Positions 542 through 19,865 of a stretch of DNA of 64,000 bases are shown here, in pieces. The notes beneath the pieces were generated by a model. It was not told where the DNA came from. It saw only the letters and a list, made by a program, of their open reading frames with translations, and did no database searches. The position numbers were made by a program, and so were the translations under genes. The DNA lies in the NCBI GenBank assembly GCA_003569205.1, contig BGOK01000002.1, forward strand, positions 124,001 through 188,000, read 5' to 3'. Positions within the stretch are counted from its first letter, which is position 1. Each line of letters begins with the position of its first letter. The DNA comes from Verrucomicrobiota bacterium. Its GTDB lineage: Bacteria; Verrucomicrobiota; Verrucomicrobiia; Opitutales; UBA953.

Positions 542-3500
542 ATGCATGCATTTCTGAAGTCCACGCTCGTTGCCCTTTCACTGTTTGTGGGGCTACTTCC
601 GTCCATGGCCGCCGAGGAGCCGCTGTTCGCACGGGATAACCTAGCCGCTTGGTGCATCGTTCCCTTCGACGCCAAGCAACGTGGTCCTGAGGCTCGGGCG
701 GAGATGCTGGCGAAACTCGGCTTCAAGCAGTTCGTCTATGATTACCGGGCGGAGCATATCCCGCAGTGGGACGCCGAGCTCATCGCCTTAAAGAAACGTG
801 GCATCGCGCTCACGGGTTGGTGGTTTCCAACGGTCTTGAATGACGAGGGTAAGCAGGCCCTAGCACTTTTCCGCAAGCATGACGTGCACCCCCAGCTGTG
901 GGTGATGGGTAATGGCGGTTCCATCGCGGTGAAAGACGCGGCAGATCAACAAGCCCGCATCGCCGCAGAAGTGGCGCGACTCAAGCCCATCTGCGACGCC
1001 GGTGCCGCGCAGGGCTGCCAAGTGGGTCTCTATAATCACGGGAATTGGTTCGGTGAACCCGATAACCTCGTGGCGGTCGTGCAGGCCTTGCAGGCCCAAG
1101 GCGTGAAGAACGTTGGCATCGTCTATAACCTACATCACGGCCACGGGAAGGTTGAGCAGTTCGATAAGTTCCTGCCCAAACTTCTGCCGCATCTACTCTG
1201 CCTAAACCTGAACGGCATGGACGCCGATGGCGAAGCGAAGGGGCAGAAGATTAAGCCGCTGGGGTCTGGGCACCTCGACCTCGCCATCCTCCGACAGGTC
1301 CGGGCCAGCGGTTACCGCGGCCCGCTGGGAATTTTGAACCATACCAACGTCGATGCCGAAGGGCGCCTGCAAGATAACCTCGATGGGCTCGCTTGGTTGG
1401 TCGCACAGCTCGATAGCCCGATCGCACCCGCCGCCCCTAAGTATCGCACCTGGGCTGAGCCTGCGCCGAAGAAGAAGCTTACCCCCGCCGAGCCAGTTCC
1501 TTCGTTCGCGCCGGAGTTTGGGTATGCGTTGTCCGGTGGCTATGTGACTAAGGGCAAGCCGACGTTTCATGAATGGCCTATCACCGTCGAAGTGCGCGCC
1601 CGCTTGGACGGCAAGGCCAACTACAACGTCATCATCGCCTGTAACAATAAACCCGACCTCGGTCATTGGGAGCTGAAGACCGATCGCGGGACGGGCGCCT
1701 TTGGTTTATACATCCCCGGACGTGGTGGCGAATTCCCCACCGGCCGCGTTATGACCGATGGGAAGTGGCACGACTATGTAGCCGCTATTGGCAAGGAGCG
1801 TGTCCGCGTCTGGATCGACGGCGAACTCGTCTTGGATAAACCCATCGCAGCGGAAAAAGTCCGACCCGCCGCCGCAGAAGAGAAGTTAGCTTTCGGTCGA
1901 CTGGTAGATGGCACCGTCGGCTGCGATGGCCTCGTGGATGACGTGCGCCTGTCGCGGGGTGAGATCCCTCCGGAAAAGTCCGCTCAACCGATGCCGCGCC
2001 TGAAGCGCGATCAAGACACCTTGGGTAATTGGAACTTCGATGACCAGTTATCCGCCGCGGCCGCGGCCGCCGCGCCCACGCCCGCAGATTTTCGTTATAC
2101 ATTGCCGCCGTTGCAGCCCGAAGAGACGCGTCTCTGGAAGGCCTACGTCAACCGTGACCGGATCTACGACTTCTATGCCAAGCAGGCGTTGGCCTTCGGT
2201 GGGAAGGCGTTGCCAGCGTTGTTGCCAGAATATCCCGGGCTCGACGCCGGGCGCTATGGCCACCAAGGCAACCAGAACGACCAGGTCACTTGGCGCGACA
2301 AGCGCTGGGAACTGGCGGATAAGGGGTCGCTCTTCAGCGGTGTCATCCGTGGAGAAGGCCTGACCATCCCCAAAGGGGTAGCAGTGCATGAAGGCGAGCG
2401 CAGTGCGTGCTTTGACCCCGTGTCCTTATCATTCCCGCTCGAGTGGAAGGGTGGCTTCGTCCAGTTGGGCGAAATGCGCCACGGCTTCAATGATGGCGGC
2501 CGTCTCTTGGGTACGCTGGTGCGCAAGCAAGCGCTCGGCCAGCCGGCGAAGGATGCCGTCTACCACGGCTTCTACCGTCACGGTACGCAGACGATCTTTA
2601 GCTATACTCAAGGAGGCAAGGCTGTGCTCACTACGGCTTGGAGCGGACCGCAAGATACGGCGAAGCTCGCGTCACTTACTAAGGGCGGGCCAGCGCAGTG
2701 GCCGCAGTGGATTGAGACGAAAGGCGCGGTCGGGCAGGGGAAGCCCTTTGCGACCGATACCATCAGCGTACCGTTTCAGAATCCTTACGGCGCGCTCATG
2801 TTCTTGAGCGGCTTGGACTTCTTTGCCGATGGCACCGCGGCGGTCTGCACGATGACCGGCGAGGTTTGGCTCGTGCGCGGACTCGACATCGACCTAAAGA
2901 ACGTCCGCTGGAAGCGCTTCGCGACGGGCCTCCACCAACCCTTGGGCGTGCGCATTATCCAGAACCGACTCTACGTCCTCGGCCGCGACCAGGTCACACG
3001 CTTGCATGACCTCAATGGCGACGATGAAGCGGACTTCTATGAGAGCGTGACCAATGGCTATGCGACCTCCAACGGCGGCCATGATTACGTCATCGGCCTC
3101 GAGGCTGACGCCCGTGGTAACTTCTATACCTCTTCGGGTAACCAAGGCATGTTACGTCTCAGTGGTCGCCAAGGCGTGGAAGTCCTTGCGACGGGCCTAC
3201 GTAATCCGAACGGCACCGGGATGTCGGCCGATGGACGGTTCTTCACCTCGAGCCTGCAGGAAGGCAACTGGACGCCGGCTTCGGCGATTGTGCAGGTCGA
3301 GGTCGGCAAGGACCAAGCCGTGCACTTCGGTTATGGTGGACCAAAGAACGGCGCGGCGCCCAAGGCTCCGTTACTTTACCTCCCGCGCGGCGAAGATAAT
3401 TCTAGCGCGGGCCAAGTCTTCCTCTCCGAGTCCGCTTGGCCGGCCTTGCGTGGGGCGGGCAATCTGGTGCACCTCTCGTTCGGTGCCGGGTCGGCCCTAA

Positions 3501-4531
3501 TCGTCACGCGACAGAACATCGCCGGACAGTGGCAAGGCGCCGCGCAGCGCATCGCGGCTGACTTCATCTCCGGCTCACAGCAAGGACGGTTCAATCCGAA
3601 GGATGGGCATCTATACGTCAGCGGTATCGCAGGCTGGCAGACCTACACCACCGACGACGGTTGTCTCCAGCGCGTCCGCCACGTGGGCGGCTCGCCGGTG
3701 CTCGTCGGCCATGAAGTCCGCGACAACGGCGTGCTCCTGCGGTTCAACGAAAAGCTCGACGCGTCTGTGGCTAGTCAGGCCGCTGGCCATTTCGCGCAGT
3801 GCTGGAACTATCGTTATGCTGCGGCCTACGGGTCGCCGGAATTCTCAGTCGCCCATCCCGGCGTCGTTGGTCACGACCCCTTGGCGGTCCGCAGTGCGCA
3901 CGTGTTGGCCGATGGCCGCTCGCTCTTCTTGGAGATTCCACAGCTCAGCGTTGCTCATCAAGTGCACCTGAGCGTCCGCCTCGCTGCGCAACGCGCGACG
4001 GATGTTTTCCTCAGCGCCCATGCGTTGGCGGCTCCGTTCACCGACTTCCCTGGTTACACCGCGATCCCGAAGGCTGCGCATGCGCACGCTGCTCCAGTAC
4101 CGTCTGGGTCCACGCAGATGCGGCCCGTCCGTTGGGAAACGGAAGTCTGTGGCACGCCCCCGCAAGAGATTACGTTGGAGGCCGCGACCGGGTTGCAGTT
4201 TGCCCAGAAGGAACTGCGGGTGAAGGCAGGGAAGGGCGTGGCGCTCACGGTCGTCAACCCGGACAGCATGCCGCACAACTGGGTGCTCACGAAGCCCGAT
4301 GCGCTGGAGACGGTCACGCTCCTCTCGGCCAAGATGGCCTCGGAGCCCGATGCCTATTTCCGCCATTACGTCCCGGAAACCACCGACATCCTTTGCTACA
4401 CCCGCCTGATTGATGCGGGCAAGAAGACCACGGTCTTCTTCGATGCCCCGAAGGTCCCTGGCCGTTACCCGTACCTCTGCACCTTCCCCGGCCACGCGCA
4501 GATCATGCGCGGTGTGTTGATTGTGGAGTGA
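542..4531 (+). CDS. Exported TIM-barrel / LamG / DUF6797-like / beta-propeller / blue-copper fusion protein
   Basis: This 1,329-residue protein starts at the ATG at 542. The open frame extends upstream, but only this Met begins a signal peptide (residues 1-23, cut near MAA-EE). The modules, in order, are a xylose-isomerase-like TIM barrel (about 30-295), a LamG/concanavalin-type fold (about 325-477), a DUF6797-like region (about 529-673), a PVC-type beta-propeller with an EF-hand-like DLNGDDEAD loop (about 740-1050), an Ig-like module (about 1053-1155), and a C-terminal azurin/plastocyanin domain (about 1205-1329). The copper ligands are visible as His1245 (PHNW), Cys1313, His1318 and Met1322 (CTFPGHAQIM). 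Propeller and Ig-like parts resemble the protein at 11068-12594. A role in periplasmic sugar oxidation with electron transfer through copper is inferred; the substrate is unknown. Confidence 0.88.
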   Translation: MHAFLKSTLVALSLFVGLLPSMAAEEPLFARDNLAAWCIVPFDAKQRGPEARAEMLAKLGFKQFVYDYRAEHIPQWDAELIALKKRGIALTGWWFPTVLNDEGKQALALFRKHDVHPQLWVMGNGGSIAVKDAADQQARIAAEVARLKPICDAGAAQGCQVGLYNHGNWFGEPDNLVAVVQALQAQGVKNVGIVYNLHHGHGKVEQFDKFLPKLLPHLLCLNLNGMDADGEAKGQKIKPLGSGHLDLAILRQVRASGYRGPLGILNHTNVDAEGRLQDNLDGLAWLVAQLDSPIAPAAPKYRTWAEPAPKKKLTPAEPVPSFAPEFGYALSGGYVTKGKPTFHEWPITVEVRARLDGKANYNVIIACNNKPDLGHWELKTDRGTGAFGLYIPGRGGEFPTGRVMTDGKWHDYVAAIGKERVRVWIDGELVLDKPIAAEKVRPAAAEEKLAFGRLVDGTVGCDGLVDDVRLSRGEIPPEKSAQPMPRLKRDQDTLGNWNFDDQLSAAAAAAAPTPADFRYTLPPLQPEETRLWKAYVNRDRIYDFYAKQALAFGGKALPALLPEYPGLDAGRYGHQGNQNDQVTWRDKRWELADKGSLFSGVIRGEGLTIPKGVAVHEGERSACFDPVSLSFPLEWKGGFVQLGEMRHGFNDGGRLLGTLVRKQALGQPAKDAVYHGFYRHGTQTIFSYTQGGKAVLTTAWSGPQDTAKLASLTKGGPAQWPQWIETKGAVGQGKPFATDTISVPFQNPYGALMFLSGLDFFADGTAAVCTMTGEVWLVRGLDIDLKNVRWKRFATGLHQPLGVRIIQNRLYVLGRDQVTRLHDLNGDDEADFYESVTNGYATSNGGHDYVIGLEADARGNFYTSSGNQGMLRLSGRQGVEVLATGLRNPNGTGMSADGRFFTSSLQEGNWTPASAIVQVEVGKDQAVHFGYGGPKNGAAPKAPLLYLPRGEDNSSAGQVFLSESAWPALRGAGNLVHLSFGAGSALIVTRQNIAGQWQGAAQRIAADFISGSQQGRFNPKDGHLYVSGIAGWQTYTTDDGCLQRVRHVGGSPVLVGHEVRDNGVLLRFNEKLDASVASQAAGHFAQCWNYRYAAAYGSPEFSVAHPGVVGHDPLAVRSAHVLADGRSLFLEIPQLSVAHQVHLSVRLAAQRATDVFLSAHALAAPFTDFPGYTAIPKAAHAHAAPVPSGSTQMRPVRWETEVCGTPPQEITLEAATGLQFAQKELRVKAGKGVALTVVNPDSMPHNWVLTKPDALETVTLLSAKMASEPDAYFRHYVPETTDILCYTRLIDAGKKTTVFFDAPKVPGRYPYLCTFPGHAQIMRGVLIVE

Positions 4532-5773: not shown

Positions 5774-6679
5774 TTAGGCGAGTCGACCCAGTGGGGACCC
5801 GACTTTGGCGTAGAGTTCAACGCCCGTTTCGCCCGCTTGGATGAGGTCATCCTCAAGGCGGATGCGGCCGGGCTCGAAGAGCGTCGCTAAGAAGGAACCC
5901 CCAAAGCGGAAGTAGCCTTTTTCGTCACCCTTCGCGACTGGTGCGCCCGGACGGTAGGTTTCAATGATGGTCCCGACGTTCGTGGCACCGATGGCGATAA
6001 TCGTCACGAGCCCGAAGGGGCCGGCATCGAGCGTCACGCGTTGGCGTTTGTTCTCCCAGAGATAAGCGACGTTGCGACGGAGGGCGATCGGGTTGACCGA
6101 ATAAAGCCAGCCATTGGTGAGCACCGCTTCGCCTGGTGTACCGGCGACGGGGAAGTGGAAGCGGTGGTAGTCGACCGGGCAGAGGCGTGAGCAGACCACC
6201 GTGCCTTTAAGATAGCGTTCGCCGAGGGCGCGGTCGCCGACGAGGGCAGGGATATCGAAGGACTGGCCTTTCGCGAAAATCCCTTTCACCGAGCTGGCAT
6301 CTTGGAAACCCAAGTGACGCCCATCGGCGGGCAAGACCGCCATCTCTGGACGCGGGTCGACGGGGCGTGCGGACGGCTTGAGCTTCCGGTAGAAGAATTC
6401 GTTGAAGGTCTTATAGGAATCAGGATCGGGGTCGGCGAACTCGCTCACATCGAGGCCGAAGTCACGAATGAAGGGTTTCACTCGTTTGGCACTGCTTGGG
6501 CGGTCGGCGGTCCATCCGTAGAATTTGGAGACAAACGACCGTTTTGCGGCCGCATGGAGCGTCAGTTGGCCGAGGGGATTGCCGTAAATACGCTTTAACC
6601 ACGCCTCGCCATAGACCTTCTCGATCTCAGCGCCACCGGTGTGGCGGTTGTGTAGGTGGATGGGGTCGTCGGCATTCAT
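5774..6679 (-). CDS. psd: Phosphatidylserine decarboxylase proenzyme
   Basis: It converts phosphatidylserine to phosphatidylethanolamine at the inner membrane, using a pyruvoyl group made by self-cleavage. The ATG at 6679 (301 residues) is preferred over an in-frame start at 6718 because the extra 13 residues have no family counterpart. Chlamydial-type Psd proteins begin close to this point, before the EKVYG segment. The catalytic Asp lies in PADGRH, the His in DYHRFHFP, and the self-cleavage site is FGGS, where the family more often has (L/F)GGST or LGST. The next residue here is Phe rather than Thr, a small deviation. The gene is divergent from the exported ClpP-like gene at 6746. Confidence 0.93.
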   Translation of the reverse strand: MNADDPIHLHNRHTGGAEIEKVYGEAWLKRIYGNPLGQLTLHAAAKRSFVSKFYGWTADRPSSAKRVKPFIRDFGLDVSEFADPDPDSYKTFNEFFYRKLKPSARPVDPRPEMAVLPADGRHLGFQDASSVKGIFAKGQSFDIPALVGDRALGERYLKGTVVCSRLCPVDYHRFHFPVAGTPGEAVLTNGWLYSVNPIALRRNVAYLWENKRQRVTLDAGPFGLVTIIAIGATNVGTIIETYRPGAPVAKGDEKGYFRFGGSFLATLFEPGRIRLEDDLIQAGETGVELYAKVGSPLGRLA

Positions 6680-6745
6680 GTGAGTAGATTTGCTAAAATA
6701 GGGCTTCAAGGGAACCATTTATCTGACAAAAAGAACATCCCTCCC

Positions 6746-7936
6746 ATGCCCCGACTGGTCCTTACCCTTTTGTTTCTGACCGCCGCGCTCCCTGCGCAGC
6801 AGTCGCCCACCCGTAAGTCTCCCGAGACGATCAAGGCCGAGGTCGAAGCCGAAGTCATCCGGGCCCGGCTTGACCTCGCCGCGTCGACGCGTCGCTTGGC
6901 CAATCTCCCTGATAGCCTGGAGATGCGTAAGCTGGAGGCCGAAGCCCAAGTCCGTGCCGCCCGCGCCGAGGCCGCCGCGGCTGGCCAGGAAGCCGAACGC
7001 GCCCGCTTAGGGTTGGAGTCCTCCGTCGCTTATGCCCGCGCTTCCGCTGCTGCCGCCGATAAAGATCGCGCCCGCGCCGATCTTGAATCCGAAGCCAAGC
7101 TAGCGCTGGCGCAAGTCTCGCTGGAATACGCCAAGGTCTCGTCGGTGGTCGCTATTGCCCGTCTCCAGCAGAAGACCTCCGAAGTCGCCAGCCAGGCGAA
7201 GATGACTTACCCGCAGGACCCGCTGGTTGATGGTGTTCTGCAAATCAGCGACCGCCGCATCCCCTTCAATGGCGTCGTCAACGACGCCCTCGCTCGCTCG
7301 GTGTGCGACCGCATTGCCTTCTTCAACGCCCAGAATTCGGAGGCCCCGATCTTCATCGTCATCGACCGCTCTCCCGGTGGCTCGGTGATGTCTGGTTACA
7401 TGATCTTGCAGGCCATGGAAACTTCGAAGGCCCCTGTTTATGTGGTCGTGAAGGGGTATTGCGCCTCGATGGCGGCGATTGTCACCACGCTGGCCAAGCG
7501 CTCCTTTGTCTACCCGCAGACCCTTGTTCTCCATCACCAAGCTTCGACGGGTGTTAGCGGTAACATGACGCAGATGCAGGAGCAGCTCAAGTGGAGCAAG
7601 GTCTGGTGCGAGCGTATTTTTATCAAGGTCGCCGCCCGCATTGGCGTCCCACTCGATGACTTCATCAAGGACATGTATAAGGCCACCGTCACCGGGGACT
7701 GGAAAGTCCATGGCGACGAAGCGGTCAAGCTCAAGTGGGCGACGGATGTCGTCGAGCGCATGAACGAAAACAGCTTTACCACTGCGGGCGCAACGCCCGC
7801 GCCGGCGCCGTTACCATTGACGGGCTTTGGCGACACCAACCCGGCGACTGGCCGCGTCCAGCAGGAGATTCCTCCGGCTGGTCCTTGTGACCTCTGGTGG
7901 ATGTACGACCCGACCATCGAATACGTCATCCGCTGA
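6746..7936 (+). CDS. Exported coiled-coil ClpP-like serine protease (paralogue 1)
   Basis: This 396-residue protein starts at the ATG at 6746, which opens a signal peptide (MPRLVLTLLFLTAALPAQ). Residues about 30-140 are rich in Ala, Glu and Arg with heptad-like spacing, predicting a long coiled coil. Residues about 150-335 are a ClpP/crotonase fold: nucleophile Ser241 in GYCASMAA, catalytic His264 in VLHHQ, and Asp318 in TGDWKV, so the triad looks intact. The oxyanion/strand motif DRSPGGS is also present. The C-terminus ends in a Trp-Trp-x-Tyr-Asp-Pro tail shared with the downstream paralogue. Classical ClpP is cytoplasmic and needs an AAA unfoldase; an export signal implies ATP-independent work in the periplasm. 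It is the first gene of a tandem pair with a 36-base gap. Confidence 0.88.
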   Translation: MPRLVLTLLFLTAALPAQQSPTRKSPETIKAEVEAEVIRARLDLAASTRRLANLPDSLEMRKLEAEAQVRAARAEAAAAGQEAERARLGLESSVAYARASAAAADKDRARADLESEAKLALAQVSLEYAKVSSVVAIARLQQKTSEVASQAKMTYPQDPLVDGVLQISDRRIPFNGVVNDALARSVCDRIAFFNAQNSEAPIFIVIDRSPGGSVMSGYMILQAMETSKAPVYVVVKGYCASMAAIVTTLAKRSFVYPQTLVLHHQASTGVSGNMTQMQEQLKWSKVWCERIFIKVAARIGVPLDDFIKDMYKATVTGDWKVHGDEAVKLKWATDVVERMNENSFTTAGATPAPAPLPLTGFGDTNPATGRVQQEIPPAGPCDLWWMYDPTIEYVIR

Positions 7937-7972
7937 ACCCTTCTACATAATAACTAAAATCCTATTCTCACT

Positions 7973-9382
7973 ATGAACCTCTCCTCCACCTTCCGTCTCC
8001 TCGCGCTGGCCGCCTTGGTCACCGCTCCGGTGCTCGCGCAGCAGACCACCCGCCGCGTCATCGTCGTCCCAGCTGGCGCCACGCCAGCGGGCGCTCCCGC
8101 AGCTCCCGCACCTGGCGGCACGCCAGCCGCCCCGGCCACGACCGGCCTACCGACCGCTCCGGCTGGTGCCACGACCGTCGCGCCTGGTCCCGGTATCAAC
8201 CGCGAAGAAATCTCGCCGGAGCAGAAGGCTGCCATGAAGGAAGCCGACCGCATGCGCACCGAGAAGGCCCGTATCGACGCCGAGGTTGCCTTGGCTGAAG
8301 CCAAGCGCACCGAAGAGCTCGCCCCCCTGAACGCCGAGACCGCCAAGCTGAGTGCCGAACGCGCCCTCCGCCTGGCGAAGGCCTCCGCCGAAGCTGCCGC
8401 CCTGGAAGATGAGCGTGCTAAGCTCGAACGCCAGGCTGCCTTGGAGGCCGCCCGCTCGACCGCTCGCCTCTCTGAGCGCAACAACAAGATTCGCGAACTC
8501 GAAGCCGAAGCCAAGCAACTGCAGCTCGAGGCCGCCAACACCATCTCGCGTCTCAGCAATGAGCTCTCCCGCTTCCAGAAGGAAGACGAAGCCCGCAAGG
8601 TGGCCACGAAGGCTAAGCCGAAGTACCTCAAGGAGCCCTTGGTCGATGGCACGCTGGTGATCAGCGACCGCCGCATCGCCTTTAACGGCGCGGTCACGGA
8701 AGGCTTGGCCGACTACGTCAGCCAGCGCATCAACTTCTACAACAACCAGTCCTCGGAATTCCCAATCTTCATCGTCGTTGATAATAGCCCCGGTGGCTCT
8801 GTCGCGGCGGGTTACCAGATTCAGAAGGCCATGGCCGCCTCGAAGGCGCCCGTCTACGTTGTCGTGAAGGGCTTCGCCGCCTCCATGACCGCGGTGATTG
8901 CGACGCTCGCTGAGCGTTCCTATTGCTACCCGAACACCATCATCCTGCACCACCAGGTTTCCAACTCGGCGCGCGGTAACATGACCGTGCTGAAGGAACA
9001 GGTTGAATTCACGAACCGCTGGTTCGAGCGCCTCGGTACCCCAGTGGCCAAGAAGATGGGCCTCACCTTGCCGGAGTTCGTGAAGCAGATGTATGCCAAC
9101 GATTCGTCGGGTGACTGGCAGGCATTTGGCGAGAAGGCCAAGGAGCTGAAGTGGGTCGATAACATCGTCGAACGCATCGAAGAGACGGCCATCCTCGATC
9201 TCCTGCCCCCGGCCCCGACCGTCGTCGCTATGCCGACGCCCCGGACTGCTCAGGCGGACGCCGCGGGCGTGGTCCAGAAGACCGACGACAAGGGCCACAC
9301 CTACTTCGAACTGCCCGCGCTCTCCAATCCCTTCGACGCTTGGTGGATTTATGACCCCCGCGGTCAGTATCGCTCCCGCTAA
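7973..9382 (+). CDS. Exported coiled-coil ClpP-like serine protease (paralogue 2)
   Basis: This 469-residue protein has a signal peptide to about residue 22, then a Pro/Ala/Gly-rich linker (about 30-70), then a long Ala/Glu/Lys/Arg coiled coil (about 80-200), and a ClpP-like domain (about 215-400). The triad appears intact: Ser304 in GFAASMTA, His327 in ILHHQ and Asp381 in SGDWQ. The DNSPGGS motif corresponds to DRSPGGS in paralogue 1. The tail carries the same Trp-Trp-x-Tyr-Asp-Pro signature. The two proteins are clear duplicates that diverged most in the N-terminal half; they may form a mixed oligomer. A strong terminator follows directly. Substrates are unknown. Confidence 0.88.
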   Translation: MNLSSTFRLLALAALVTAPVLAQQTTRRVIVVPAGATPAGAPAAPAPGGTPAAPATTGLPTAPAGATTVAPGPGINREEISPEQKAAMKEADRMRTEKARIDAEVALAEAKRTEELAPLNAETAKLSAERALRLAKASAEAAALEDERAKLERQAALEAARSTARLSERNNKIRELEAEAKQLQLEAANTISRLSNELSRFQKEDEARKVATKAKPKYLKEPLVDGTLVISDRRIAFNGAVTEGLADYVSQRINFYNNQSSEFPIFIVVDNSPGGSVAAGYQIQKAMAASKAPVYVVVKGFAASMTAVIATLAERSYCYPNTIILHHQVSNSARGNMTVLKEQVEFTNRWFERLGTPVAKKMGLTLPEFVKQMYANDSSGDWQAFGEKAKELKWVDNIVERIEETAILDLLPPAPTVVAMPTPRTAQADAAGVVQKTDDKGHTYFELPALSNPFDAWWIYDPRGQYRSR

Positions 9383-9404
9383 GCGGCCGATTTGAGCGTT
9401 TTTG

Positions 9405-9434
9405 AAGGCCACGGACTCGTTCCGTGGCCTTTTT
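9405..9434 (+). terminator. Rho-independent terminator after ClpP-like pair
   Basis: An 11-bp perfect stem (9405-9415 with 9421-9431) closes a 5-base loop and is followed by a run of T to 9434. It ends the transcript of the two exported ClpP-like genes just before the cytochrome c gene. Confidence 0.9.
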
Positions 9435-9459: not shown

Positions 9460-11046
9460 ATGACTGTCCTTATCCCCATGCGATTCCCCGCGCTCCTAGC
9501 CCTCGTGGCTACCACTACTGTATCCTTTGGTGCCGAAGACGGTGCTCAAGTTTACAACACCCTTTGCGTGGCTTGCCACGGCCCAGACGGCAAAGGCCTC
9601 AACGGTCTGCCTCCCTTAGTCGGCAGCGATTGGCCCAAGGGACCAGCCGAGCGCACCATCAAGATTGTGCTCCACGGCATGACCGGCCCGGTAGAAGTAG
9701 CGGGTAAAGCCTACAACATCGTCATGCCTCCGCAGGGTGCCGTGTTGAGCGACGAGAAGATCGCCGCCGCCCTGACCTACGTCCGCAAGAACTTCGCTGG
9801 CAATGCCGGTGCCGTCACCCCGGAGCTCGTCAAGTCCGTGCGCGCCGCGACCGCCACCCGGACCACCCCTTGGACCGCGGAGGAACTCCTGAAGGATCAC
9901 CCGTTCCCTCCGCCCAAGACCGCCCTGCGGAACCTCGTCGGCACGATGTATAAGGGCGAGTGGAAGGAGATGCCTGATTTCTCTAAGTTGAAGCCAGCGC
10001 AGATTGAAGACGAAAACACGGGCATCATCAGCCCCGCCCAGGCCAGTTTGAAGGACGCTTTCGCCATGGTTTGGACCGCACAGTTCCAGGCCCCCGAAGA
10101 CGGCAAGTATACCTTCGCCTTCGACTGCGATGATTACGGTGCCCTCTATGTTAACGGCGAGCGCGTCGCTGAAATCAAGGGTATCGGCCCGGTCGGCGAG
10201 CGCCGTAAGGAAGTCTCGGTCTTGCTCAAGAAGGGTGCCGTGCCGTTCCGCCTCGAATACGTCGAGGTCTCTGGCCATGAGATTATCCAGCTTAGTTACA
10301 AGGGTCCGAAAGATAAGGAATACAAGTGGCTCTCCGACACCAAGGGGACGGTCGCTAAGTCCAAGCGCGCCCCCATCCCGGTCGAAGCTAAGGACGGCTA
10401 CACCGCCAGCTACCGTAATTTCATTGGTGGTACGACCTCGCGTGCGATCGGCTTTGGTTTCGCGAACGCCACCAACCTCACTTACAGCGCGGACAATTGT
10501 GCCGTCGAACTTCTCTGGACCGGTAAGTTCATGGACGGTGCCCAACACTGGGTCGACCGCGGCCAAGGCAATGCACCGCCGGCCGGTGACGGCGTGGTGA
10601 AAGTTTCGGACGGTATGGTCGTCGCAGGTCCCTCCGCCCCGAGCGGGGCGATTATCTCCTACCAGGTGAACAAGGACGGCGGTAAGGGCGCGAGCTTCAA
10701 GGTCGTGAACGAGCCCGCTGAATTCAAGGGCTACCAGCTCGATAAGAACGGCAACCCGACCTTCAAGATCGCCGGCGAAGGTTTCAGCCTCACGGACGCA
10801 TGGACGCCCGCGGATATGCGCGGATCGGCGGGTCTCGCCCGTAAGATTGTAGCGGCTGGCGACAAGCCCGTGACCATCGTCCTCTCACGCGGGCTCACGG
10901 TGCAGGCTAATGCCGGCGCCTTCGAAGTCGGCCCGCGCCTCGTGGTTCGTGCGATCTCGGGCGTCGCTCCCGCGGCCGCTGGCCCGGACCTCGTGCTCAC
11001 CCTCAAGCCCGGCGAATCCGCCGTGCTGGGTTACTCCTTCCGCTAA
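9460..11046 (+). CDS. Exported c-type cytochrome with PA14-like domain
   Basis: The ATG at 9460 (528 residues) is chosen because its context nearly matches that of the next gene; Met7 at 9478 is an alternative. A signal peptide ends near residue 25. The haem c site is CVACH at residues 36-40 and a likely axial Met lies in NIVMPPQG, as in the mono-haem cytochrome c domains of PVC proteins. Residues about 170-300 resemble a PA14 carbohydrate-binding beta-barrel (WTAQFQAPEDGKYTF, DDYGALYVNG). The C-terminal half is a PVC-specific beta domain. With the propeller protein 21 bases downstream it probably forms a dehydrogenase-cytochrome pair in the periplasm. Confidence 0.88.
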   Translation: MTVLIPMRFPALLALVATTTVSFGAEDGAQVYNTLCVACHGPDGKGLNGLPPLVGSDWPKGPAERTIKIVLHGMTGPVEVAGKAYNIVMPPQGAVLSDEKIAAALTYVRKNFAGNAGAVTPELVKSVRAATATRTTPWTAEELLKDHPFPPPKTALRNLVGTMYKGEWKEMPDFSKLKPAQIEDENTGIISPAQASLKDAFAMVWTAQFQAPEDGKYTFAFDCDDYGALYVNGERVAEIKGIGPVGERRKEVSVLLKKGAVPFRLEYVEVSGHEIIQLSYKGPKDKEYKWLSDTKGTVAKSKRAPIPVEAKDGYTASYRNFIGGTTSRAIGFGFANATNLTYSADNCAVELLWTGKFMDGAQHWVDRGQGNAPPAGDGVVKVSDGMVVAGPSAPSGAIISYQVNKDGGKGASFKVVNEPAEFKGYQLDKNGNPTFKIAGEGFSLTDAWTPADMRGSAGLARKIVAAGDKPVTIVLSRGLTVQANAGAFEVGPRLVVRAISGVAPAAAGPDLVLTLKPGESAVLGYSFR

Positions 11047-11067
11047 TCCCAAAGACCTATCTTTAAT

Positions 11068-12594
11068 ATGAAAAAGTTTACCCTCACACTCTTAGCCTTA
11101 CTCGCCCTCGCTCCGTTTGCGGAAGCGCAGGCGAAGAAAAAGGGCGCGGACGGCAAGGCCGTGCCTAGCAAAAAGGCGTCGGCTGGTCCGGAAGCGATGG
11201 CGCTCCAGGATAAGTATTACGAACGCGTCCAGATCCCGACCCCGCCGGGCGAGGTCGTTGAGGTCTCCTCCATCGCCCTGTTGCCAGGGAAGAAGGTCGC
11301 CATCGCTAGCCGCCGCGGCGACGTCTGGGTCTGCGAAGGTGCTTACGAGGCCGACGTCACCAAGGTCAAGTGGACCAAGTTCGCTTCCAATCTCCATGAA
11401 CCGCTCGGCATGTTCTATAAGGGTGGCTCGCTCTACCTCACGCAGCGTCCCGAGCACACCCGCCTGACGGACACCGATGGCGACGGCAAGGCCGACGTCT
11501 TTGACACCATCTGCGCCAAGTGGGGCATCAATGGTGACTACCATGAATACGCCTTCGGTACCGACCCCGACAAGGATGGCAACGTCTGGGTCGTGCTTTG
11601 CTTGACGGGTTCGTTTCACGCCTACTCGCCTTGGCGCGGCTGGTGCGTGCGCATCACCCCTGAGGGCAAGATGATCCCGACGACTTCGGGTATCCGTTCG
11701 CCCGGTGGCATCGGCATGAATGAGAAGAGCGATGTCTTCTATACGGATAACCAAGGCGTGTGGAACGGTTCCTCGTCGCTCAAGTGGCTCCGCCCCGGTT
11801 CCTTCCAGGGTAACCCGACGGGTAACAAGTCTGCGCAGCTTGCGAATTTCCCGGCGCCGCCCGAGCCCAAGAGTGGCTCGCGTGTCCTCACCGAGCGCCT
11901 GCAGTTCCCAGAGTTCGTTCCGCCGGCGGTGGTCTTCCCGCACGGTAAGGTCGGCAATTCGCCTTCGGGTATGGCTTGCGATATGACCAAGGGTAAGTGG
12001 GGTCCGTGGGCGAACCAGATGTTCGTCGGCGAGCAGACTGCTTCGCAGGTTCAGCGCGTTAACCTTGAAGTCGTCAATGGCCTCTACCAAGGCGCCGTGT
12101 TCCACTTCCTCCAAGGCTTTGAAGCTGGCCTCGTGCCCGTGCGCATGGACCAGGAAGACGGCACACTCTTCATCGGCGGCACCAACCGTGGTTGGGGTTC
12201 GCGTGGCTCGCAGCCGTTCACCTTTGAGCGCGTCCGCTACAAGGGCACGGTGCCGTTCGAGATGCACAACATCTCCGCCCGCTCGGATGGGTTTGAAGTG
12301 ACCTTCACGCATCCTGTCGATGCCGCTACCGCTGCCGATACGGCGAGCTACTCCATGGATGCTTTTACCTATATCTATCAGTCTTCCTACGGCAGCCCCG
12401 AGGTAGATCAGGCGAAGCCCACGGTGAAGTCCGCCACGGTCTCGGCGGATGGCCTTAAGGTGCGCCTCGTGATCGATGGCCTCGTGCGTGGCCATGTCCA
12501 TCACCTCGTCGCTGACGGCGTCCGCAACAAGGCGGGCGATGCGCTCTGGCACAACGAAGGCTGGTACACGCTAAACGAGATTCCTTCTAAATAA
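11068..12594 (+). CDS. Exported PVC-type beta-propeller dehydrogenase-like protein
   Basis: This 508-residue protein has a signal peptide to about residue 21. It carries a beta-propeller domain of the PQQ sugar dehydrogenase/DUF7133-like type found in Planctomycetota and Verrucomicrobiota. A calcium-loop-like DTDGDGKAD motif lies near residue 135. The last roughly 100 residues form an Ig-like module (PVDAATAADTASY, YGSPEV) also present in the giant fusion at 542-4531. Whether it binds PQQ cannot be decided from sequence alone. The gene lies 21 bases after the cytochrome c gene and upstream of a symporter, which suggests extracytoplasmic sugar or polyol oxidation. Confidence 0.85.
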   Translation: MKKFTLTLLALLALAPFAEAQAKKKGADGKAVPSKKASAGPEAMALQDKYYERVQIPTPPGEVVEVSSIALLPGKKVAIASRRGDVWVCEGAYEADVTKVKWTKFASNLHEPLGMFYKGGSLYLTQRPEHTRLTDTDGDGKADVFDTICAKWGINGDYHEYAFGTDPDKDGNVWVVLCLTGSFHAYSPWRGWCVRITPEGKMIPTTSGIRSPGGIGMNEKSDVFYTDNQGVWNGSSSLKWLRPGSFQGNPTGNKSAQLANFPAPPEPKSGSRVLTERLQFPEFVPPAVVFPHGKVGNSPSGMACDMTKGKWGPWANQMFVGEQTASQVQRVNLEVVNGLYQGAVFHFLQGFEAGLVPVRMDQEDGTLFIGGTNRGWGSRGSQPFTFERVRYKGTVPFEMHNISARSDGFEVTFTHPVDAATAADTASYSMDAFTYIYQSSYGSPEVDQAKPTVKSATVSADGLKVRLVIDGLVRGHVHHLVADGVRNKAGDALWHNEGWYTLNEIPSK

Positions 12595-15951: not shown

Positions 15952-18153
15952 TTATTTGGTGGTCTCGGTTGGCTTGGCGCCGAGGGACTTGGTCCAGTCG
16001 GCCGCAATTCGGACCGCTTCCTGGAGCTGGATATCGTAGTCAGGCCAGTCTTCGTCTTCAAGTGGGTCACGGACGCGCGACATACGCTTCGACTTACTGG
16101 TCCACTCGGCCCCTTCCTTTTTCTCCTGCTCGAGGGCGGCGTCCAGTTTTACGTCGGTGGCCTTGATCGCTTTGGTCGCTAGCACGGTGAGTTCCTTCCG
16201 CACCTGCTCACGGAACACGAGGTCATCGCTCCGCTCTTGGCGGCGCTGGTCCAGGGAGAGGGAGACTTCCTTGCGGAGCTGACGGCTCTTGGTCCATTCG
16301 ATGGAATGGGTCAGCGTGAGGAATTCCGGCATTTCGGCCTGACGCTTAGCGGAAGCCTCACCCAGCAGTTTGACTAGGCCGTCGGAGAGCTTGGCCTTTA
16401 GCCAATCGCCTTCGTCGGCCTTTGTAAGGGAGGGCGGAATGGAGTCCCAGGCCAACGGACGCTCCAGGTCGGATTCGGCCACGGGTAGAACCGAGAAGAC
16501 GGACGGCACGACGATGTCGGCGGGAACGCCCTTGAGCTGGATGGAGGAGCCGCTGGGGGCATACCATTTTGGATGGTCACCTTGACGGCGGACTTCACGT
16601 CGAGACCGCGGAAGACACGGTTCAATTCGATGATGTTCTGGACCGAGCCTTTACCGTGAGTCGTCGTATCGCCAACGATGAGGGCGCGGTTGTGGTCTTT
16701 CATGGCGCCGCAGAAGATCTCCGATGCGGAAGCGGAGAGCTTGGTCGTGAGCACGATGAGCGGGCCATTCCAGACAACCTTCTCATTTTCGTCACGGTAG
16801 TCTTCGATGCGTCCTTGGCTGTCGCGGACTTGGAGGATGGAGCCTTTCGGGATGAATAAGCCAGAGAGGTCGACCGCTTCAGTTAGGAGGCCGCCCCCGT
16901 TTTTACGGAGGTCCATGATGAGGGCCTTAATGCCGAGCTTCTTCATCTTCTCGATCAGCTGCTCGACGTCCTTAGTCGGGCTCGAGCCTGTGCCGTCGGG
17001 GTTCTTGCCGTAGAAGGCGGGGAGATCGATGACGCCGACGGTCACGTTGCCGTTACCGTTGGGGGCCTCGAAGCAACGGGCGGAAGCCATCTGGCCGACG
17101 AGCTTGATTTGATCACGTTTGAGGGCGACCGTCTTACGGACGCCGGCGGTATCGATGAGCAGTTTGACGGTGGTGCCTTGCTTGCCGCGGATACGGCTGA
17201 TCGCCTTCTGCAGGCGGAGGCCGACGATGTCATCCATTTCGCCCGCTTCACCTTGGCCGACGGCGATGATGCGGTCACCCGTTTTTACTTGGCCCGAGAG
17301 GTCCAGCGGGCCGCCTGGAAGCACTTCCTTGATGGTGCAGTAGCCATCTTCGTCCGACAGGGTGGCACCGATACCGCAGAGCGAGTTACGCATCGCGATC
17401 TCGAACTCCTCGAGCGACTGCTGGGAGAAGAAGATCGAGTGTGGGTCGTACTGCGTGGAGTAGGCGTTGAGGAAAAGCTCTTCGACCTCCTGCGGGTCAA
17501 ACGTCAGGTAGACACGAACCTTTTCGTAACGCTTCTTGAGGCGGGCGACGGCTTCTTTGACCTTTTCAGGCGTGATAACCGGGGCTGTCGTCTCATGCGA
17601 AGGCTTGGCTTTGGGGCCGGCGGTGGTGCTGGGCTTATCTTCACCGAGTAGTTCGGAGAGGATATCGAGGCGGAGGCGCCGGGACCAGAGGTCATCGGCG
17701 TCGGCATCGCTGGCTGGCCAGTTGCCTTTACGGCGGTCGGTCGGGAAGACGCCAGGTTGACTGAGGTCGATTGGTTGGTTGAGGGCGGCGAGAGCTTCGT
17801 CTGTCCGCTGGACGACCTTGGCCTTGAAGGCCTTGTAGATTTCAAACGCCGGCGTCAGGTTGCCGCGCTGTAAATAGAGATCTAGGCTCTTAGCGTAGCG
17901 GGCGGTGAACTCATCGACTTCCTTCTGCGTGAAGTACATTTTCGCCGGGTCGAGGCTTTCGAAGTAGGTCTTGATGACTTCGTTGGTGTCGATCGACGAC
18001 ATCTCCTTTTTGCTGATGTGGAGCTTCTCGAGTAACGCGACGGTGGCGCGGGTCTCGTTCTGCATGAGCTCCGTAGTCGTGTAGTTCTGGGTCGTCTGAC
18101 CGAAGGCGGCAGCCGACAGCAAGGACCAGTAAAGACGGGGGAAGGAAACGCAT
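15952..18153 (-). CDS. prc: Carboxy-terminal processing protease (Prc/Tsp, S41), reading frame broken
   Basis: A periplasmic tail-specific protease of the Tsp type. The gene is about 733 residues when corrected but is split by two apparent indels. From the ATG at 18153 the signal peptide only stays in frame if one G is removed from the run 18137-18141 (giving MRFLPRLYWSLLSAAAFGQ). The largest intact stretch is 18122-16398, with the TSP N-terminal domain, a PDZ domain (about residues 250-330) and an S41 domain. Catalytic Ser477 (SASASE) and Lys501 (THGKGS) are present. Near 16567-16570 one base is missing; the C-terminal part continues in another frame from about 16566 to 15952 and still reads as the family's helical tail. 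Either sequence error or recent decay explains this. Confidence 0.85.
16567..16570 (-). other. Apparent -1 frameshift site in prc
   Basis: The coding strand has four A residues where five would join the S41 domain frame to the C-terminal frame (restoring KWYAPSGSSIQLKG as in other Tsp proteases). No pseudoknot or other stimulator is evident, so programmed frameshifting is not favoured. Confidence 0.75.
18137..18141 (-). other. Apparent +1 frameshift site at the prc signal peptide
   Basis: A run of five C on the coding strand puts the ATG at 18153 out of frame with the protease. Four C residues would give a well-formed signal peptide running straight into the mature protein. Confidence 0.65.
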
Positions 18154-19089: not shown

Positions 19090-19698
19090 TTAGAGCTTCT
19101 TCACGATCTCGTCGGCGAGGCCATACTCGATGGCCTCCTCGGCGGTCATGTAGAAGTCGCGGTCGGTGTCCTTGGTGACTTTTTCAATCTTTTGCTTCGA
19201 GGCCTTCGCAAGGATTTCGTTCAGTTCGGAGCGGAGACGTTCCATCTCCAGAGCCTGGATGTGGATGTCCACGGCCGGGGCTTGGATGCGGCCCATGATG
19301 AGGGGCTGGTGAATCATCACGCGGGCGTGCGGGAAGACGAGGCGCTTGCCCTTGCCTTTGGGCGCTTGGAGCAGGATGGAGCCCATCGAGGCGGCCATGC
19401 CAGTGACGACGACCGTGACGGGGGAGCTGATGAGGCGGATGGTGTCATAGACGGCCATGCCTGCGGTGATCGAGCCGCCCGGGGTATTGATATAGAAGGT
19501 GATGTCCTTACCGGGGTCCGAGGTCTCCAAGTAGAGGAGCTTCTCCACGATGTCCTTGGCGGAGGCGTCGTCGACGGCACCCCAGAGGAAGAGCTTACGC
19601 TGTTCCAGGAACTTCTTCTGGATGAGCATCGCGCTGGGCGAAGCTTCCTTGGGAGCTGCGGGGGTCTTCTCGTCCTCGTCTTCGTCGTCGTGAGCCAT
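19090..19698 (-). CDS. clpP: ATP-dependent Clp protease proteolytic subunit
   Basis: A canonical cytoplasmic ClpP of 202 residues. The ATG at 19698 is chosen over the longer frame to 19854 because the extra residues lack family similarity. It has Ser104 in GMAASMGS, His130 in VMIHQP and Asp181 in the DTDRDF segment, the standard triad, and the hydrophobic-groove residues. The first 20 residues are very acidic (MAHDDEDEDE), longer than the short propeptide of many ClpPs. No clpX or lon lies alongside; instead a rhomboid and a Prc protease follow on the same strand. It is divergent from the ABC ATPase gene. Confidence 0.95.
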   Translation of the reverse strand: MAHDDEDEDEKTPAAPKEASPSAMLIQKKFLEQRKLFLWGAVDDASAKDIVEKLLYLETSDPGKDITFYINTPGGSITAGMAVYDTIRLISSPVTVVVTGMAASMGSILLQAPKGKGKRLVFPHARVMIHQPLIMGRIQAPAVDIHIQALEMERLRSELNEILAKASKQKIEKVTKDTDRDFYMTAEEAIEYGLADEIVKKL

Positions 19699-19865
19699 GG
19701 GAAGAGTTAACTTGGCACAAAAGGGAGCGGAGGCAAGCGTCTCGAGGAGGGTTTTTATGCACAATTCTTGGCTCAATCCTAAGCATGTGGGGTGGAAATC
19801 TGGGTTTGCCCAGCCCCCTTGCCGCTGGCGCTTGCGCCCAGCCGAGACTTCCAACTAATGGGGGC

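Follow-up and report, generated by a model that had tools for sequence, protein, structure and literature searches.

A tandem pair of putative exported ClpP-fold peptidases with a long charged helix and a conserved tail in a Verrucomicrobiota genome

ClpP is the textbook example of a proteolytic chamber that relies on an unfoldase powered by ATP. SppA, an ATP-independent envelope peptidase of the ClpP superfamily, uses a Ser-Lys dyad, the long form of NfeD (1510-N type) is an exported ClpP-fold protease, and the phage ClpP-like head maturation protease works without an ATPase. Here we describe two adjacent genes, A and B, in a 64,000-nt stretch of contig BGOK01000002.1 of a Verrucomicrobiota bacterium (the window, whose numbering is used for all coordinates, with the forward strand as plus). 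Judging from sequence and structure prediction, namely the fold, the catalytic triad, export-type N-termini, changes in the ATPase pocket, conservation of the tandem and purifying selection, we consider it somewhat probable that both products are active exported serine peptidases of the ClpP fold, working in the envelope without an AAA+ unfoldase. No description of such a family was found among the matches listed in a search of open-access papers, with subscription papers and preprints outside its reach. A “membrane-anchored ClpP” is named among the surface proteins of Staphylococcus aureus (PMC7023439), the passages on it describing no signal peptide, helix or tail, and PMC2605481 gives no hit for Verrucomicrobi or Opitutus.

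6746..7936, plus strand: gene A, putative exported ClpP-type protease of 396 amino acids (ATG to stop; from the open reading frame, Pfam and predicted structure)
Parts of A: signal peptide about 1–18 (by eye), helix 26–148, ClpP core about 160–341, tail WWMYDP 384–389; triad S241/H264/D318
7973..9382, plus strand: gene B, putative exported ClpP-type protease of 469 amino acids (ATG to stop; same sources)
Parts of B: signal peptide about 1–22 (by eye), Pro/Ala-rich linker to about 80, helix 82–213, ClpP core about 222–404, tail WWIYDP 457–462; triad S304/H327/D381
19090..19854, minus strand: canonical ClpP, used as comparison protein (from Pfam)

The two genes follow each other on the same strand, A before B, separated by 36 bp. 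Both are members of the Pfam ClpP family by score, fold and triad: the CLP_protease model (PF00574) matches A with 75.1 bits (E-value 8.3e-21) and B with 72.8 bits (4.3e-20), above the gathering score of 20.2, the canonical ClpP of the window scoring 215.9. The ClpP fold with the handle helix and the PGG loop is present in both, the catalytic Ser, His and Asp lie in it exactly at the positions given by an earlier note on this DNA, and the matches of B to PDB sequences are ClpPs throughout among those listed (60 of 94). AlphaFold2 predicts a confident ClpP core in each protein, preceded by a single long helix of 123 residues in A and 132 in B, which is 23% Ala and rich in Glu and Arg. The third, canonical ClpP mentioned in the same note was found where expected, downstream of the pair; the source genome holds one more canonical ClpP-like gene, L003 (G000:C3:40490-40993).

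The earlier note proposed a search for the architecture and the tail across Verrucomicrobiota. In a sample of 387 genomes of the phylum, 277 match the family profile at 1e-15, and 33 have a match above 250 bits, which we take as the family call. The remaining matches do not exceed 85 bits and resemble canonical ClpPs, so that a clear score gap separates them from the family; the only listed score inside the gap, 212 bits, belongs to the second copy in genome G304. Of 177 genomes sampled from the order, 17 carry the family, 15 genomes of the source’s own taxonomic family with two copies and two genomes of other families with one, and no genome of the source’s taxonomic family is found among the non-matching genomes listed for this sample, 140 further ones lying outside that list. 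A contig search with the core and tail of B yielded 66 loci, 64 covering more than half of the query, from records named Opitutae, Opitutales, Opitutus, Puniceicoccales or Verrucomicrobia, two being titled only “bacterium”. One locus titled Akkermansia muciniphila (L018) holds an Opitutae-like pair with 79% identity to B and may be mislabelled. Beyond Verrucomicrobiota the range was checked in plasmids and viral contigs: there are four plasmid matches of 28–30% identity, of which three are annotated as clpP and the fourth carries no annotation, and one distant viral match from 60 candidate stretches.

Most members from outside the source’s taxonomic family are encoded by a single gene, with the parts in unchanged order and LPRLxPxDxYxLYNPDxYYR as the form of the tail; G199 has two separate copies. 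Another family of the same class has a tandem pair in G277 (L116, 7515–9554), thus the duplication may have occurred more than once. A tree, rooted at midpoint only, was built from 52 family cores together with four canonical ClpPs; one branch (100/100) parts the two sets. The A proteins of closer relatives and of gut genomes form one group of 17 (98/87), and the B proteins from gut genomes fall outside the B group of closer relatives (15 sequences, 97/92).

For conservation of single residues, open reading frames were selected by profile score alone (176, of them 147 distinct in the last 230 residues), and counts refer to sequences with a letter at the given position. The catalytic Ser is kept in 144 of 145, the His in 143 of 144 and the Asp in 143 of 144. 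These counts replace those of an earlier motif-picked set (119/119, 119/119 and 118/118), which had dropped A sequences with NPGG or CPGG, and in 22 sequences of which the Ser and His motifs had themselves been selection criteria. Loss of the catalytic residues in relatives, which the earlier note had named as grounds for refutation, is thus confined to one exception among readable relatives. Purifying selection is seen in ten comparisons, with nonsynonymous divergence (dN) of 0.013–0.175 against synonymous divergence (dS) of 0.288–1.011.

The sole exception for all three residues is the second gene of G304 (G304:C23:36927-37649, in L082), called B by its position and lipobox and absent from the tree. 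It no longer has any of the three catalytic residues and reads QGG instead of PGG, while retaining the helix, the tail (DGWWIYDP) and a lipobox; its partner at L082, which belongs to the A group of the tree, has a complete triad. A dead lipoprotein beside an intact partner suggests a mixed A–B complex with an inactive anchoring subunit, and the G304 pair favours such a complex without proving it.

An ATG followed by an early hydrophobic stretch is found in 103 of 104 sequences from relatives (own genome excluded, as well as sequences lacking [SR]PGGS or short at the N-terminus), the exception, L051, beginning at a contig end. A lipobox (FAGC, LSGC or LGGC) closes the signal in six of 121 sequences (L054, L057–L061), each of which comes second in its pair, and a seventh, LAGC, is that of the partner of L082 in G304. 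As the lipobox replaces the signal peptide in these B relatives, it provides independent evidence for export. The signal peptides reported earlier for both proteins are kept in relatives. We have also considered a wrong start, the other ground for refutation raised at the time. The alternative start of A, GTG at 6656, was rejected, as it falls inside the divergent decarboxylase gene (5777–6718, minus strand). Moreover, in relatives such as L005–L008, L013 and L032 the frame of A opens only seven codons before the same ATG, which contradicts a wrong start. With these short upstream frames and the lipoboxes, the objection did not hold; in 37 of the 103 sequences the frame opens at most ten codons before the chosen ATG.

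The positions that we take to form the ClpX/ClpA docking pocket were compared with those of five canonical ClpPs from the source and related genomes. At the position of E. coli Tyr62 all 143 family sequences have Val, Ile or Met and the five canonical ClpPs have Tyr; at that of Phe82 all 143 have Ala, Ser, Thr or Gly and the canonical proteins Leu or Phe. Residue 92 is Lys in 145 of 145 family sequences and Thr or Ile, hence also variable, in the canonical five. In the DRD motif before the catalytic Asp, presumably a contact between rings, Arg is replaced by Gly (xGD) in 143 of 144 profile-picked sequences and in 52 of 53 in a separate alignment, 14 of which were motif-picked. The changed pocket and the lost DRD motif are consistent with a chamber that has given up contact with an unfoldase, and the earlier argument that an exported pair could use no ATPase gains support from the envelope-type N-termini and the altered pocket.

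The tail is visible in 114 of 118 motif-picked sequences with room for it, the exceptions being L049 (contig end), L047 (diverged end) and two variants, L082 and L083. Among profile-picked sequences its first Asp is kept in 140 of 140, the first Trp position has Trp in 109 and Tyr in 28 of 141, and the second has Trp in 104 of 141, otherwise Phe, Met, Tyr, Ala or Leu. So, the Trp-Trp-x-Tyr-Asp-Pro tail noted earlier stands for A and B and, in kind, for relatives, while the Trp pair is not strict. Conservation to this degree speaks for a role of the tail in structure or binding.

These features could be combined as follows. Both proteins would be exported, probably by Sec, and would form a single or double ring like that of ClpP. 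Entering the core at the axial N-terminal segment of ClpP, the long helix would stand like a stalk where the ATPase otherwise sits and may tether or gate the chamber, which in some gut-type relatives would be done through a lipid anchor carried by B; the C-terminal tail may fold onto the core or an adjacent subunit. The substrates of such a chamber would be unfolded proteins or peptides, e.g., misfolded secreted proteins or cleaved signal peptides, in a form of envelope quality control. A fuller and distinctly tentative version is a membrane-tethered, motor-free chamber built as a mixed A/B ring, in which a crown of helices of 18–20 nm (123–132 residues at 0.15 nm each) on the pore side takes the place of the ATPase and extends through the periplasm as far as a lipid or membrane anchor. 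Passive entry would select unfolded substrates, B might become a dead lipidated anchor, as in G304, and the tail would cap the vacated ATPase pocket.

Several observations weigh against motor-free envelope peptidases of this kind. No match above 250 bits is found in 354 of the 387 sampled genomes, so the family is dispensable in the phylum. The signal peptides were scored by a simple, permissive hydrophobicity measure that chooses the last passing upstream ATG. Lipidation is no rule even among gut relatives, as the gut-derived B of L056 has no lipobox. The predictions are of monomers only, with predicted TM-scores of 0.54 and 0.53, and we infer the ring geometry. The heptad periodicity of the helix was compared with shuffled sequences in two tests, yielding p-values of 0.07–0.18 for A and B in one, and 0.41 for B and 0.88 for A in the other. 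Since heptads in A and B are not above shuffles, we speak of a long charged helix; of the “long Ala/Glu/Arg coiled coil” described earlier, the length and charge agree with AlphaFold2 and composition, and the coiled coil is not supported. Among 17 sequences tested, both measures are significant at 0.05 in L077, L079 and the A partner of L056, and one of the two in L099. Finally, a comparison of 33 loci from all clades revealed no widely shared gene that would name a substrate or partner. Besides the family itself three gene clusters span clades: in one, all 29 members lie mostly inside a family gene in another frame, and in another, 50 of 59 do, the remaining nine being in five loci; the third is an ABC-type ATPase from four loci.

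The pair might instead stand in for SppA as an envelope peptidase whose main task, close to the inner membrane, is the removal of small fragments and of signal peptides after their cleavage; the helix would then serve as a spacer. Export and a ClpP-superfamily fold are common to both, 11 of 36 members match SppA_dom at an E-value of 1e-5 or lower, and the extra residue before the PGG loop (VVDNSPGG compared to YI-NSPGG) is an SppA/NfeD trait. However, the SppA_dom scores of 20.1 bits (A) and 23.8 bits (B) are far below the cut-off of 155.45, the Ser-His-Asp triad is kept and aligns with ClpP, differing from the Ser-Lys dyad of SppA, and the solved-structure matches listed are ClpPs, making this alternative rather unlikely. 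Still less probable is an envelope scaffold, that is, a ClpP ring retained mainly as an assembly platform for the long helices, with little proteolysis. Helix plus conserved tail roughly equal the core in length, and the G304 second gene retains both after the loss of its triad; on the other side, only one of about 144 readable relatives lacks an intact triad, and the G304 partner has it. An NfeD/SPFH-like membrane protease acting with a stomatin-type partner, for which a weak NfeD1b_N match of B (2.1e-6) and the Ala/Glu-rich helices that stomatins also carry would speak, is very improbable, since B reaches 27.9 against a gathering cut-off of 40, A is not listed at E-values up to 1, and A and B have neither a neighbour conserved across clades nor a conserved SPFH-type one, whereas NfeD and SPFH genes are usually adjacent.

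If exported motor-free peptidases of the ClpP fold are indeed encoded here, they would show how the ClpP chamber could be re-engineered for envelope work without a motor and would constitute an additional class of envelope quality control in Verrucomicrobiota. The natural dead-subunit variant of G304 opens the question of assembly to direct testing.

The immediate neighbours of the pair are:

5777..6718, minus strand: phosphatidylserine decarboxylase, divergent, 5' of A (from a domain match)
9404..9432, plus strand: terminator-like hairpin of 12 pairs followed by a T-rich stretch, directly 3' of B (from a scan against shuffled sequences)

The hairpin is weakly suggestive of a single A–B transcription unit; the scanned stretch has two terminator-like sites compared to 3.8 expected from shuffles. 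Among 47 A-bearing loci of closer relatives, 44 have the decarboxylase 5' of A; in the other three the contig stops inside the gene or at most about 0.2 kb from it. The decarboxylase is probably not a part of the system. In nine loci of close relatives an S41 tail-specific protease lies directly behind B, followed by a rhomboid in eight, that is, in all whose contig extends that far. This possible link to envelope proteolysis, seen in close relatives only, provides weak evidence and is treated as a lead, not as a partner. The S41 gene of the window (15955–18122, minus strand) is split over two overlapping frames, its signal-peptide start apparently lying in the frame of the preceding rhomboid, and it is a single frame in a relative (L013:6769-9006); we ascribe the split to a sequencing error or decay. 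Genes with cytochrome c, PA14, plastocyanin-like, laminin G-like and DUF6797/DUF7133 domains flank the pair (551–4528 and 9460–12591).

Among known systems, phage head maturation proteases differ from A and B, which are host genes with a signal peptide and a long helix, and the corresponding model, NF045542, whose cut-off is 120, scores the two at 53.9 and 54.9 bits. SppA is alike as an exported ClpP-superfamily fold, and NfeD as an exported ClpP-fold protease. The closest family in both sequence and structure is ClpP itself (S14, PF00574), with which A and B share the core fold with the handle helix, the PGG loop and the triad. They add to it a signal peptide or lipobox, the N-terminal helix and a C-terminal tail of about 55–65 residues, have a changed ATPase pocket with xGD for DRD, and are below every NCBIfam ClpP cut-off: 67 and 70 of 228 bits for PRK12553, 63 and 59 of 249 for PRK00277, and 53 and 47 of 308.6 for TIGR00493. 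This last test is the weakest, because the canonical ClpP of the window passes PRK12553 (239) and also misses PRK00277 (216) and TIGR00493 (196.6). ATP-dependent ClpPs are located in the cytoplasm or organellar matrix, whereas A and B have, by their sequences, a signal peptide or lipobox; because of this location, the docking positions and the NCBIfam scores, we do not class them as ATP-dependent ClpPs. ClpR-type inactive subunits, which we take to occur in plastid and cyanobacterial Clp rings, resemble the second gene of G304, also a non-catalytic ClpP-fold paralogue beside an active one; the G304 copy differs in having a lipobox and a predicted export signal, and its inactive state is exceptional in the family.
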